Positions 57,130-62,835 of a DNA stretch of 64,000 bases are shown piece after piece. A program made the translations under genes and the position numbers. Origin of the DNA: Ischnura elegans (lineage: Eukaryota; Arthropoda; Insecta; Odonata; Coenagrionidae); the NCBI RefSeq assembly GCF_921293095.1, contig NC_060254.1:106230917-106294916 (forward strand), read 5' to 3'. How positions within the stretch are numbered: position 1 is the stretch's first letter; each line of letters opens with the position of its first letter. The notes under the pieces were generated by a model, which did not search any database, was not told the origin of the DNA, and saw nothing but the letters and a program-made list of their open reading frames with translations.

Positions 57130-57131
57130 TA

Positions 57132-57881
57132 CAGTCACTTTCAAAAGTTTTAGGACAAAGTTTGTGGCGCCACTTCTGCTTCTCAAGAAAATTTAGTTTC
57201 CCTTACTCCATTTGTTTTCCTTGCTCACGCACTGCAAATATTTCGCTTCCATGTGAAGATATATGAGCAAAGAGGGAGAAGTTACTTGCTAAATTTATCG
57301 TTTTGTTTCGATCTTTGATGGATTTAATGATTAATTTCGTGTGCATACTCTATGTCCTTGCTTCGGTTTTCACTGCTGGTCTGATATTATGTATTACAAA
57401 AACCTCAACGTCAACAGTCGTGGTGGCGTAGTGGAGTTAATGCGACGTCGTCAAAGTAAAGGTTGTTGGATCGATTCCCCTGCTCGGAAATAAAATTTCC
57501 GCTTTTTTTTCCTTGGTAACTCCTTTCGTATTTAATAATGGGTTTCAAATAATTTAAATTCGCTGTAACCGTTATATACTTTTTTTAAATGGTAAATGGT
57601 AATATACAAGTTAAGAATTGGGCAAGGGTTGACGTATCATTTTTATGGATTGCTAGTACCCATTTTGAAAATTAGGGATTTGCAAAAAGGGTAACCGTTA
57701 CCCGACGGTAAGGGGCGCATTCAAACCCAGCGTTGGTATTAACTTAATGATTTTAGATTGGCGATGAAGGGTTATACATAGCAGTTGATTATTGCATTAA
57801 TTGGTTTAGAAAGCTGTTGATTATTATGATTTTCTGAAATGAGTACCATGCTTCATCACACGTCTCTTGAGACGGGTGATA
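57132..57881 (+). repeat. Left 750-bp terminal inverted arm
   Basis: Pairs with 62051-62801. The inner boundary is where GACGGGTGATA ends. The arm holds a tRNA-like module at 57420-57490 and TTAGGGATTTGCAAAAnGGGTAACCGTTACC near 57673-57705. Confidence 0.88.
57420..57490 (+). repeat. tRNA-like module (SINE-type) in left arm
   Basis: GTGGTGGCGTAGTGGAGTTAATGC carries an A-box-like TGGCGTAGTGG. About 35 bases later GGATCGATTCCCC is a B-box-like core. No cloverleaf with a clean anticodon stem can be drawn, so it is not called a tRNA gene. It is a tRNA-derived SINE head or an internal Pol III promoter. Confidence 0.65.
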
Positions 57882-57911
57882 AAGCACAATGTTCATCACC
57901 ACAAACCTCAG

Positions 57912-58031
57912 TCTAGGGATTTGAAATAGAGCTTCGAAATTAAACTTTTAAACGCACTATTTATAAAAACTCCCTGGGCAAGACCCCCGGTATGGGCTTC
58001 CCCAATATTTTTTTATGAGTCGGCACCCCTG
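57912..58031. repeat. Fragment of an hAT-like MITE
   Basis: It ends in CCCCAATATTTTTTTATGAGTCGGCACCCCTG, the inverted form of the left part of the 51418-51678 element. Only that half is recognisable and no duplication is seen. It lies just inside the left arm. Confidence 0.5.
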
Positions 58032-58034
58032 CAT

Positions 58035-58900
58035 ATATATCATTATTAAAGATGGCGGAAATAAGGAATTCGCCAATATTTGAATCCTCTTTCAAGTACT
58101 GTGTTAAGGCGAACGACAAATAACTTCACTTGCGCGTTCAGGGCACGTTAAAAAAGATAGGGAGTAGAGAAAGCTGGCATCGGCTTTCTCTTCTTCTTAA
58201 CAAAAGGCGCCAAGGGTCTGAACGTCACATGCGACGGACAGATATTTTGTACTTGCAGTGTTACCCACACACCACACAGGATGGGAACGACATTCAACAG
58301 AAAAATGTCCACCACCGCCAGATTTTTGAAAAAAGCCCTCGGAGAGAATTACCTATGCACTGTCAAAACGAAAATTTGTTTCCGTGAAATTACCCACTCA
58401 TGCTATACACTTACCGTAGCAGGCACATGGCGCTAGAGGGTAGTAGAGCTCAATAACCCACTACAACTCTTAAATAATTTCAAGTTTTTTTTAACTTAAC
58501 TGAGAATCGTTCAACAGATAAACCTTTAAATATTGAAAAACGAAAACTAAAGGAATGAAGTAAATTCTATTACCATGACAAATTATAAAATGAATCCCAG
58601 GTAAGTTAAATTTGTGGATATCAATCATCTCTCCCCGAATGATCAAATAAAAATGACTTAAAGTGAAAATAATAATTAAATAAATAATCAAAAATAATTA
58701 CTTATGAACCCAAAAACTTATGGAAAACTTTAAAATTATTAATTTGATTGCCGTGTTTTTTTTCAGTACATACGCATAAAAAATAATTGTAAATTTTCGC
58801 AACATCTTTTATCGACCAATAAAAGTTAAAAAATCAAAACATGATACAAAAATGGCAAAGCTTGCAAATTATTCTTCGGAAGGCGTAAGCGTTGGTTTTA
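58035..58900. other. No gene seen inside the Tc1-type unit
   Basis: AT-rich in its right half. A frame at 58130-58387 has no recognisable family. Confidence 0.35.
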
Positions 58901-58905
58901 TCTAA

Positions 58906-60049
58906 TTAATAGCGAGTAATACCACCATTATTTTCTGTGACCGCCTCCAGTCTGGAGCTCATAGAACGAACTAAATTCTCGCACACCTGAGGACGGCGTC
59001 CAATCGATTGCCATATTTGGCGCACATGACCATTTAGCGCATCCAGATTGCGCTCATTCCCAATGTCCCATTCTCTCACCACTACACTCCAAAGGTTTTC
59101 TATGAGATTCAAGTCTGGGGAATTAGATGGCCATGGCAAAACATGAATACGTGGATGCTGTTCAAGAAAATTAGAAACGATATTTGCCCTATGGATTGGG
59201 CAATTGTCCTGGAGGAAAGTCACTTCCTCGCTAGGCGGAACGACCGTTTCAATATACGGCAGAAGATGGTTCGTCAGGATACCCACGTACTCCTCTGCAT
59301 TTAGTCTTGGAGACGTGGAAACTATAGGCCCAGGCCCTGCAGCCGTCATTGCACCCCAATAACTTTTGCTGAGGCGTCCTGAGTTATTCCTTGTAAGGAT
59401 GTGCCGCTGATCGTATCTATGAACGTAATATGTTCGTGTTGCATTAATCAATTCCATCATGATTGACAAAACAATAGAAATAAATATTAGCAATTTAAGA
59501 AATGAAAGAAATGCTTTCATACCGTGTATTCCTTGCCCTCCACAGTTTTATTATTCCTTCCTGATTGCTGCGAAAAGTTTTTTCGCCCGCGAAAATAGTA
59601 AAGTCCCAAAAAACCTAGTCGTTTACTAAATTATTTCTGCTGAAAAACAACCTCGAATGCTTCTCCTGCTCAGTTAAGAAAGGCTTTAGGGCAGGTTTGT
59701 GGTGTTGTATGCCATGCGCAATCACCCGCCTTCTAATTGTTGCGTAGCTGCAACCAAATTGCGCCTCCCTGGAAATCGCAGCTACTCCGCCAACACTGAG
59801 AGGTTTACCCTCAATCAAATGGCGAATCCTTTTGTCCTCCAAATCGTTGGTGGCCCGAGGTCTGCCGCTTCTTCGCCCGTCCTTCAGGGATTCGCCGCCT
59901 TCCCTAAAACGCCGTACCCAGTAATACACGGTATTCCGGGACAAATTGAGCTGGCCAGCTACTTGGGCAACTGTTTTACCGCCCTCAACCATCCCAATTA
60001 CCTGTACACGTAAGGTTGGACTCAACCGCGTGCTCCTCTGCTCTTCCAT
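58906..60049 (-). pseudogene. Tc1-type transposase, inactivated
   Basis: The N-terminal frame (60049-59615) holds the paired-like DNA-binding domain: VQVIGMVEGGKTVAQVAGQL, LSRNTVYYWVRRFREGG, then the GRRSGRPRAT AT-hook-like link and a second helix-turn-helix (GGVAAISREAQFGCSYATIR). A TAG after LVND ends it, but the frame continues to TIFAGEKTF. The first catalytic Asp, usually in FSDEKTF, has become Gly there. The C-terminal frame (59520-58906) has SGRLSKSYWGAMTAAGPGP, the second Asp in TFLQDNCPIHRANI and the Glu in SPDLNLIENLW, in Tc1 spacing. One nonsense codon, one frameshift and loss of a catalytic residue make it dead. Confidence 0.9.
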
Positions 60050-60210
60050 AGCTCAGTAGTTCAAGATTGGTTCTGAGTTATCGATGAAGTTGTTTCTAAG
60101 CCACGTGCTTTTCTTTAATTCGCTGTTCCATGGTTCACAGTTCTCAGGTCCTGTTCCCATGATTACTACTTTAAAACCATGGATATCTTTCATTCCCACT
60201 TATTAGTAAT

Positions 60211-60290
60211 TCGTGGCATGGATAAGTGGTTAGAGCGTTAGTTTGCTGATCTGGAGTCTTAATTTCGCATCCCCACCGAAGCTAATATTT
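60211..60290 (+). repeat. Second tRNA-like repeat
   Basis: GGCATGGATAAGTGGTTAGAGC is A-box-like, and a degraded B-box region with TTTCGCATCCCCACC follows about 35 bases later. It resembles a tRNA-derived SINE head and differs from the module in the arms. No intact cloverleaf. Confidence 0.5.
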
Positions 60291-60294
60291 TTTC

Positions 60295-61015
60295 TTTTGA
60301 AAATTTTTAATTTCAGCGTATTTACTGTCATAATTATTATTCAATAGATACTTATAATTTAAAAGGGCTTAATTTGTTTTTTATGAAAGCTGACCCGGCG
60401 AACTTCGCACCGCCTAGCAATCAATGAACATTTATTTGAAATAAATCAACATTCAGCCCTGATGATGAGTGCCGAGACGGTACTTGACACGTAGGCCGTT
60501 ATAAAAACATTAAGCCGGTGGGAATCCCGAGAAGAGTTTACCCACATTATTCGCCGGGAAAGTATAAAATCATATTTCACAATGAACATTTTGGTTACAG
60601 CATTTATAAATAATGAGCGGCGGAACCGATTTGAATCATTTTTGACTTATTATAATACCGTAAGGTAAAGATTCAATAAAACTACAACAATTAGTATTGC
60701 AATTGCTTGTCAGAAAGGCATTTTCTCTATCTACATAGGGTTGACCAGGGCATGTTACGCAGAATTTCTTTCTGTGAATTTTATAATTTTTACGTTTTAA
60801 CTTATCAAAATTTAGACATTGTGGTTTTATAAAGCAGTTAATAAAGTCCATATTGTGGCGAGCCATTTATAACTCGGTTTGGTAAAAGTGAACTCCGTAA
60901 ACTTCTGCTATTCGAGGTTGATACGAATCCAAAAAATTCTATTCATCTAGAAAATCGTTCAAATATATGTAGCCGTTCTCGAGTTATAAATAGTGTAACT
61001 AACACGATTTATGAC
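60295..61015. other. No gene seen
   Basis: AT-rich. A 76-codon minus frame at 60636-60866 is unrecognised. Confidence 0.35.
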
Positions 61016-61019
61016 TTTT

Positions 61020-61670
61020 TTATGAATATAAATATACTTAGATTAAATAAATAAATAACATAGAAACACTGAAAAAGGGACACTCACAAAATGTTTTTCA
61101 GACGTTTCGATGGGGTGACCCACCATTCTCAATGAGTGAGACAGGACTGCTGATGTCTTCTGTGGAGTTTAGGGGGGGGGGGAGGTTGAAGGGGTAGGTG
61201 GAGGTGAGGGGGAAATGGGGAGGGATTGGCTAGTGGCTACTGAGCGACGTTCAGCCCTGGCGGTTTGAACGCTGTTTCCACCCAGGTGTGCTGGGTGAAT
61301 TTTCTGGTAGTATTTCGATTTAGGAAAGGGAAAAGCACTGCTCGAAGGAACTATTTTGTGTTGGAGTACTGGTTCAACTAATGGGGGGGACTTGGTGGAG
61401 AGGCGATGGTTGTTCATCGGAATGGATACTGCCGTGGTGCATTCTCCAATGTAGTAGGCAGGGCAGAAATTGTAGGATAGTCGGTTGATGGAATTAAAGG
61501 AAGTATTTAAAGGAAAAAGGAGAAGAGGAAGATTTGTTGATGACTGGTGGGGAGGTGGAGTGAAACAAGAAGCAGCACTTGCATCTTGGGCGGTTGCATG
61601 TTGAGGAGGAAGAAGATAGGGGGGCAGTACGGGGGAGAGAGGGGCGGTTGTATCGGAATATTTGCGCACG
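61020..61670 (-). mobile_element. Penelope-like element, 3' fragment
   Basis: The minus-strand frame holds CPAYYIGECTTAVSIPMNNH followed by RLSTKSP (61468-61352). It resembles the start of a GIY-YIG nuclease domain of Penelope-like elements: Y-Y-I-G-E-x-T, then M-N-x-H-R. Downstream on the same strand CCCCATCGAAACGTCTGAAAAAC (about 61110-61090) resembles the GAAACGTC motif in Penelope-like 3' UTRs, and an AAATAAATAAAT-like stretch follows. The remaining Pro-rich frame is low-complexity and probably not original protein. Confidence 0.5.
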
Positions 61671-61674
61671 TTGG

Positions 61675-62050
61675 GTGCCTTTCTGTAGGTGATAGAAGGG
61701 CGGGAAGGGAGGAGATTGAAGTACTTTGATTGAAGTACTTTGGTTTGCGCTGATGATGGGGTAGAGGTCTCTTAAGATATTTTTTATTTCTTAGGGCTGT
61801 TTAGGCCTTCTTCTAATTCATTGGATAAAATTCTATATTGTGCATTCGCAATAGGGTATAACATCAACAGGTTTCCATTATCAGCTCGCCGATAACTTGG
61901 AAGAATCCGTTCTGACAAATTAGTTGGAACTTGCATTGAATGAAAACTAGAAAACACATTCAACGCAAAACCCAAATGAAGTAGTATGTGATGATTATAA
62001 AGGCTATTTGCTGTATGTAAGTCAAGTTGGACGTCATATAATGACACACA
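61675..62050. other. No gene seen
   Basis: Spacer between the Penelope-like fragment and the right arm. A 93-codon minus frame at 61784-62065 is unrecognised. Confidence 0.3.
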
Positions 62051-62801
62051 TATCACCCGTCTCAAGAGACGTGTGATGAAGCATGGTGCTCATTGCAGAG
62101 AATCATAATAATCAACAGCTTTCTAAACCAATTAATGCAATAATCAACTGCTATGTATGACCCTTCATCGCCAATCTAAAATCACTAAGTTAATACCAAC
62201 GCTGGGTTTGAATGCGCCCCTTACCGTCGGGTTACGGTTACCCCTTTTGCAAATCCCTTACGCTCAAAATGTGTTCTAGCAATCCATAAAAATGATACGT
62301 CAACCCTTGCCCAATCCTTAAATTGTATATTACCATTTATCATAAAAAAAAGTATATAACGGTTACAGCGAATTTAAAGTATTTGAAACCCATTATTAAA
62401 TACAAAAGGAGTTACCAAGGAAAAAAAATGTTGACATCTTAATTCCGAGCAGGGGAATCGATTCCAACAACCTTTACTATGACGACGTCGCATTAACTCC
62501 ACTACGCCACCACGGCTTCTGACATTGAGGTTTTTGTAATACACAATATGAGACCAGCAGTGAAAACCGGAGCAAGGAAACAGAGTATGCACACGAAATT
62601 AATCATAAAATCCATCAAAGATCGAAACAAAACGATAAATTTAGCAAGTAACTACTTCCTCTTTGTTCATATATCTTCACATGGAAGCGAAATATTTGCA
62701 GTGCGTGAGCAAGGAAAACGAATGGAGTAAGGGAAACTAAATTTTCTTGAGAAGCAGAAGTGGCGCCACAAACTTTGTCCTAAAACTTTTGAAAGTGACT
62801 G
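62051..62801 (-). repeat. Right 750-bp terminal inverted arm
   Basis: Inverted partner of 57132-57881. Its tRNA-like module lies at about 62448-62518 on the minus strand, with B-box-like GGAATCGATTCCCC and A-box-like TGGCGTAGTGG. The terminus ends GACTG next to TA. Confidence 0.88.
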
Positions 62802-62835
62802 TACATCAAGTGATGTCAAGTAACTGCGAAGAATA

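Follow-up and report, generated by a model that had tools for sequence, protein, structure and literature searches.

In a 64,000-nucleotide stretch of the Ischnura elegans genome (RefSeq assembly GCF_921293095.1, contig NC_060254.1, positions 106,230,917 to 106,294,916; here called the window), we analyzed a Tc1-superfamily transposon of 5,670 bp that spans window positions 57132 to 62801. Its terminal inverted repeats (TIRs), or arms, are about 750 bp long and carry a tRNA-like module. Comparison with other copies and with a sister family, whose arms reach 5.4 kb, points to growth and homogenization of the arms by copying from one arm to the other, as described for Galileo. On these sequence comparisons, we consider it fairly probable that this is a cut-and-paste element of a long-armed clade, that inter-arm copying has homogenized and lengthened its arms, and that the module was captured and is now a relic or passenger. 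Four traits are directly visible in the sister copies: arms homogenized within a copy, arm ends that differ between copies, arms grown into the transposase gene, and insertion as one unit at TA.

The window copy has TA on both sides, and its tips read CAGTCACTTTC at 57132 and, on the opposite strand, at 62801. The arms are 85 to 98% complementary in four ungapped blocks, with a p-distance of 0.054 over the first 740 arm positions. A first-pass annotation had described a Tc1-type element with TA flanks, CAGT starts, and inverted arms of about 750 bp, all of which was borne out, down to the exact coordinates. It overlooked the broken transposase of this copy and the truly giant arms of the sister family. 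No empty site for the window copy was found, as 0 of 40 matches cross the junction of its joined flanks; the repeat matching its right flank starts at least 15 bases from that junction. The ends of the element are as follows:

57130..57131, no strand, TA target-site duplication, left (read in sequence)
57132..57881, plus strand, left arm, about 750 bp, the outer 200 bp or so least variable across copies (arm alignment)
62051..62801, minus strand, right arm, about 750 bp (arm alignment)
62802..62803, no strand, TA target-site duplication, right (read in sequence)

Giant, homogenized arms in a sister family

Our genome searches covered the 1.72-Gb assembly (110 contigs) with methods that score the best candidates only, and genome counts given here are lower bounds. 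The nearest transposase outside the window family that is full over exon 2 is 71% identical there, and its exon 1 shares 60 to 66% identity with window-family copies. It lies in a 12,831-bp copy (C10:95218397-95231227; loci L036, L034, L029, and L035; the C10 copy) whose 5,093-bp arms differ at one base. This transposase looks open, with 345 amino acids when the exons are joined and the D-D-E residues present; Pfam finds DDE_3 and a Tc3-type helix-turn-helix (HTH) domain, and the best solved match is Sleeping Beauty (E 4.1e-29). The C10 tip and the window arm have CAGT, AAAAGTTT, and GGCGCCACTTCTGCT in common and are 76% alike over the first 115 bp or so, a part of the arm from which the window's module is absent. 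When the C10 flanks are joined with one TA, 40 of the 41 listed matches, copies of a dispersed repeat, cross the junction. Therefore, the 12.8 kb is one inserted unit in a dispersed repeat, with a clean empty site.

Five of the seven sister copies with both ends listed were fetched. All five are TA flanked, total 8.2 to 19.5 kb, and have arms of 5,093, 5,442, 1,417, 1,412, and 1,448 bp that are, in every case, 99.7 to 99.98% identical within the copy; sister tips have 57 genome matches at up to 3 mismatches. Across the outermost 985 bp, 0 to 1 sites distinguish the two arms within a copy, against 8 to 59 of 973 to 985 sites between arms of different copies. In C10, the arm reaches 7 codons into the transposase gene. 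In the 19.5-kb copy on C14 (C14:15134636-15154138; L042, L031, and L043), both 5,442-bp arms contain about 350 bp of the transposase coding start, in frame for 87 codons, after which the frame changes. Pfam found nothing in three frames of one giant-arm piece (X at stops) or in two arm open reading frames (ORFs).

The copying would most likely take place when an excision gap, or a break within one arm, is repaired from a template, which may be the other arm or a sister copy aligned in inverted register. At times one arm would thus be copied onto the other, keeping the arms long and alike. Copy tracts running past the arm end would recruit interior DNA and lengthen the arms, and the 5.1- to 5.4-kb arms that reach into the transposase gene would be the outcome of such growth. 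Because the opposite end of the element now carries coding sequence that belongs to the 5' end of the gene, the 5' side of the gene was the template.

Two other origins of the similarity have to be weighed here. A one-time inverted duplication, with no later copying, is unlikely as a general explanation. It is contradicted for the sister family, in which all five copies have arms 0 to 1 site apart while the copies differ among themselves, and in which the arm ends vary from copy to copy. It agrees better with the window family, where most complete arms measure 742 to 760 bp and 11 of 13 copies have an arm as near or nearer to an arm of another copy. The second origin, false inverted duplication during assembly, is conceivable for near-perfect palindromes, which are hard to assemble. 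We regard it as highly improbable for the giant arms, since both ends are TA flanked with different outer flanks, the C10 empty site is clean, and copy-specific variants, among them the changed tips in the C14 and C8 pairs, are common to both arms.

The window family and its arms

The arm search returned 40 scored matches among 1,768 candidates, and 20 loci were fetched. For a census of tips, we took the window copy and L008 to L028, dropping two partial matches; L001 to L007, which mostly repeat other loci, were left out. TA lies outside all 35 complete arm ends, and 34 of the 35 tips start with CAGT. The three bases beyond the TA are ATG or ACG at 27 of 35 tips (counted by eye), which suggests a preference for ATGTACAT-like targets. 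Full copies are 3.8 to 4.1 kb (with most of the transposase deleted), 5.5 to 6.2 kb, 8.3 kb, or 9.9 kb long. The outer 120 to 200 bp of the arms vary less than the remainder, as would be expected for transposase binding. The genome thus holds a multicopy family with paired long arms, TA duplications, and the module at a constant arm position, in line with the first-pass annotation.

Movement is recent. L021 and L022, on different contigs and at different TA-flanked sites, are 99.88% identical over 5,896 bp, which, given their different flanks, is recent transposition. The transposase matches of both contain stops, and the two copies were probably moved in trans.

In the 13 arm pairs of this family, the mean distance is 0.024 within copies versus 0.048 between copies. 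The arms of L009 are identical over 740 positions and 2% from the nearest other arm, and L009 is the only copy among 35 arms with a B-box change common to its two arms. The L062/L063 arms differ by 0.4%.

A number of observations weigh against inter-arm copying as a general process or against the module as a constant part of the element. Both arms are nearest each other in just 2 of the 13 pairs; 9 further pairs were measured from one arm, and this holds for 2 of them. Three of those 9 (distances of 0.11 to 0.28) have shorter arms that diverge strongly in their inner parts, and the arms of the window copy itself differ by 5.4%; homogenization in this family is occasional, rarer than in the sister family. 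In the sister family, inter-arm copying is read from sequence in five of seven copies. L030 and L032, which with L029 and L031 have transposases of 65 to 71% identity, show no long inverted arms within the 7 to 8 kb fetched. Finally, the tip pattern including TA has 544 genome matches against 143 for the module, and many tips may be without a recognizable module. One of the three shorter-arm pairs, L066/L067, shows no difference in the first 524 positions compared, and L031 (C14), before extension, looked like L030 and L032. Among more distant relatives, at 44 to 55% identity, L033 had a single matching tip, and no long inverted arms were seen there.

A broken transposase

The window-family transposase has two exons on the minus strand, and Pfam finds HTH domains and DDE_3 in it:

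58909..59421, minus strand, transposase exon 2, DDE_3, with the second D and the E 35 residues apart (Pfam, alignment)
59422..59521, minus strand, short intron, approximate (by analogy with the C10 copy)
59522..60052, minus strand, transposase exon 1, helix-turn-helix and GRPR, carrying a stop and a catalytic D-to-G change (Pfam, alignment)

The spacing of 35 residues between the second D and the E is the same in the C10 copy. At six of the nine window-family loci that cover the first catalytic D (the window, L015, L018, L019, L020, and L024), a stop stands just before this residue and G replaces it (FAGEKTF), while neither lesion is found at the other three (L016, L023, and L026). With this stop and the D-to-G change, the window copy is probably nonautonomous. 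The six lesion-bearing loci have different flanks and are thus different sites, so these copies most likely spread after losing their enzyme, driven in trans. The window copy and its near relatives would most likely have been moved by enzyme supplied by other copies.

A tRNA-like module inside the arms

About 290 bp inside the arms of the window copy and its relatives lies a module made up of an A box, a B box, and a run of T:

57424..57434, plus strand, A-box-like TGGCGTAGTGG, left arm (box scan)
57468..57478, plus strand, B-box-like GGATCGATTCC, left arm (box scan)
57503..57510, plus strand, T8 run, possible RNA polymerase III (Pol III) terminator, left arm (box scan)
62499..62509, minus strand, A-box-like, right arm (box scan)
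62454..62465, minus strand, B-box-like with one extra base, right arm (box scan)
62421..62428, minus strand, T8 run, right arm (box scan)

We scanned for this unit (A/B/T unit) with degenerate (IUPAC-coded) A and B boxes followed by a T-run, using consensuses for the A box, the B box, and the terminator; the definition was set after the sequence had been seen. Apart from the left-arm unit, the two strands of the window hold none, and 0 of 3,000 dinucleotide-shuffled arms contain one. The three parts occur in order in the left window arm and in most other arms. The claim of an A-box/B-box pair about 290 bases into each arm thus holds for the left arm, but the right-arm B box carries an extra base. 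ARAGORN found no tRNA, and Rfam gave no match up to E 5, nor any in six loci up to E 1.

A 24-base pattern of the first half of the module, with up to 3 mismatches, has 143 genome matches versus 1 for the reversed control. All 100 listed matches of the 143 sit in arms, with no free-standing copy among them: 84 form 42 inverted pairs 1.5 to 12 kb apart, and the other 16 were placed in arms by BLAST (10) or by coordinates and tip distance (6). A recent insertion of a short interspersed element (SINE) into each arm was rejected on this ground, and the module is probably an old captured piece. The earlier suggestion of a SINE captured and copied to both arms stands as far as tRNA likeness and age go; the free-standing copies expected of a SINE are missing from the listed matches. 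Two short sequences, CTCAACGT and CTCAACAT, flank the module in other arms (by eye) as a possible target-site duplication.

Three tips without a listed module nearby were fetched as well. L075 has the module, with its 24-base stretch changed at two sites, and is evidently one of the 43 unlisted matches; L074 has none, and L076 has part of it. In L076, a diverged relative, the B box GGATCGAATCC stands at about the equivalent position in the arm, and the A box is missing (by eye). Since this B box is kept there, the module probably predates the window family.

The L015 left-arm module was compared with 20 tRNA genes from this genome, which represent Met, Lys, Arg, Thr, Ala, and Cys. The best score, 53.1 with tRNA-Arg, was reached by 0 of 300 shuffles. 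Among 852 windows of L015, not counting its hAT-like insert, the top score of 53.1 is reached by the arm modules and by a single interior stretch, and the next is 49.1; by this modest margin, the module is probably tRNA derived and heavily decayed. An initiator-tRNA origin, suspected from a CAT triplet and a GGATCGA box, was rejected, as tRNA-Arg (53.1) and tRNA-Thr (51.8) beat its 43.2. The interior stretch is a second, different one:

60203..60290, plus strand, tRNA-like stretch, its B box decayed in the window copy (tRNA score)

By coordinates, 36 of its 38 genome matches adjoin a family transposase match, which marks it as element bound.

Could the module be a working Pol III unit, the other reading offered by the first-pass annotation? 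Each arm would then give an inward RNA of about 90 nt, or its B box would be bound by TFIIIC, and the unit would be selected for arm pairing, for insulation, or as a decoy. We think this improbable, though some conservation is seen. In 35 arms chosen regardless of the module, the A box is exact in 33 and the B box in 30, and all of those 30 have a run of at least 5 T. Yet in the 34 distinct arms of this unselected set, the A and B boxes together show 5 changes over 22 sites, a count as low as that in 9.4% of equally spaced window pairs, and a site shuffle gives a nonsignificant 0.07. In a set of 65 arms, the B box has 5 changes over 11 sites against an average of 19 (the lowest 4.2% of windows), an average raised by the noisy, poorly aligned inner arm end; the A+B figure there is 0.6%, but the A-box count is biased, as the A-box half served to find 30 of the 65 arms. 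Proven selection was therefore rejected, the signal being suggestive in the 44- and 65-arm sets, both of which include arms found through the A box, and not significant in the unselected one. The boxes are possibly, not demonstrably, constrained.

Single copies divide in the same way. The diverged L076 retains its B box but lacks the A box, and neither the extra base in the right B box of the window copy, nor the changed B boxes in both arms of L009, nor the absence of ARAGORN and Rfam matches fits a working unit well. In the sister family, a different A/B/T unit, about 2.8 kb from the tip and reading toward it, occurs in both arms of C10 and in both of C14, yet the A/B/T scan found none in the arms of the C12, C17, and C5 copies; the unit in C10 and C14 is another captured piece, now doubled. 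For the window family, we favor capture of the module in an ancestor, after which inter-arm copying would have placed it in both arms; its present role is most likely that of a relic or neutral passenger.

Comparison with known elements

Like the Tc1 branch with its long-TIR members such as Minos, the element has a TA duplication, a CAGT tip, and an HTH and DDE transposase. It differs from them in size, with full copies of 3.8 to 19.5 kb and arms of mostly 0.75 to 5.4 kb. In published accounts, Tc1/mariner elements are usually 1.3 to 2.4 kb long (PMC7093834). Tc1 TIRs measure about 30 bp, some several hundred, with about 700 bp in Tec (PMC7325037), and Tc1 elements of Apoidea are 952 to 1,805 bp long with TIRs of 24 to 221 bp (PMC8472432). 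Measured against Tec (PMC7325037), arms of about 750 bp are long, but less striking than the first-pass annotation held. The DD35E elements named Traveler have the same 35 residues between the second D and the E, but are about 1.5 kb long and vertebrate (PMC7093834); we do not class the present families with them. Aphid LTIR/Lsra, with TIRs of about 460 bp (PMC5490172), and ciliate Tec also belong to the Tc1/mariner group. LTIR transposases are DD40-41D and Tec is DD34E with three ORFs, and the arms of both are far shorter than the 1.4 to 5.4 kb found here.

The closest parallel in process is Galileo, of the P superfamily, for which the published description gives TIRs 98 to 100% identical within one copy and recruitment of interior sequence (PMC3573991). 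Galileo and Foldback-like elements likewise have long, near-identical TIRs extended by recruiting interior sequence. The Galileo transposase is unrelated: Pfam finds DDE_3 and a Tc3-type HTH here and no P/THAP type, and our families are not members. tRNA-derived SINEs have a tRNA-like head with A and B boxes, as the module does, but the module ends in a T-run inside the arm and is confined to arms in the matches listed. By title and start of abstract, we recognized no report of kilobase-scale TIRs in Tc1/mariner elements or of a Pol III unit in Tc1 arms, in a search that did not extend to repeat databases or to papers behind a subscription.

Families are often characterized by their TIR length, and the usual picture of a Tc1/mariner element is a small one; in this genome, two related families have arms from about 0.75 to 5.4 kb long. 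With homogenization copy by copy and a direction of copying, the two families would extend to Tc1 a process described for Galileo and form a natural series for studying how gap repair builds long inverted repeats. The series also suits asking whether such long arms remain able to transpose, and whether they trigger hairpin-RNA silencing or chromosome breaks. A bolder view, for which we see only slim chances, is that the Tc1 cycle itself routinely rewrites one half of the element by the other. Arms would then grow without a fixed limit, from 0.75 to 5.4 kb, and engulf the element's own transposase gene. Pol III promoter units, once captured, would be carried as mirrored pairs, of one kind in the window family and of another in the giant arms, and could give rise to paired RNAs or serve as TFIIIC anchors that aid end pairing.

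Nested and rearranged copies

The 8.3-kb copy L015 holds a nested hAT-like insert (L015:3519-5305) with an ORF whose hAT dimerization match falls below the Pfam cutoff. L018, L019, L020, and L024 contain extra DNA of similar size and place, as judged by size and position. Comparison of copies also places one junction in the window copy:

60902..60903, no strand, junction at which the window copy is without about 0.91 kb found in L015 and L024 (copy comparison)

L074 (C2:4212900-4214199) has only the first 70 bp of the arm in common with the window (98.6%), followed by different DNA with, by eye, seemingly another IS630/Tc1-type transposase, and is possibly a chimeric or captured tip. L046 is a 711-bp mini-element with two intact tips, in which 574 bp of one arm stand opposite 121 bp of the other.

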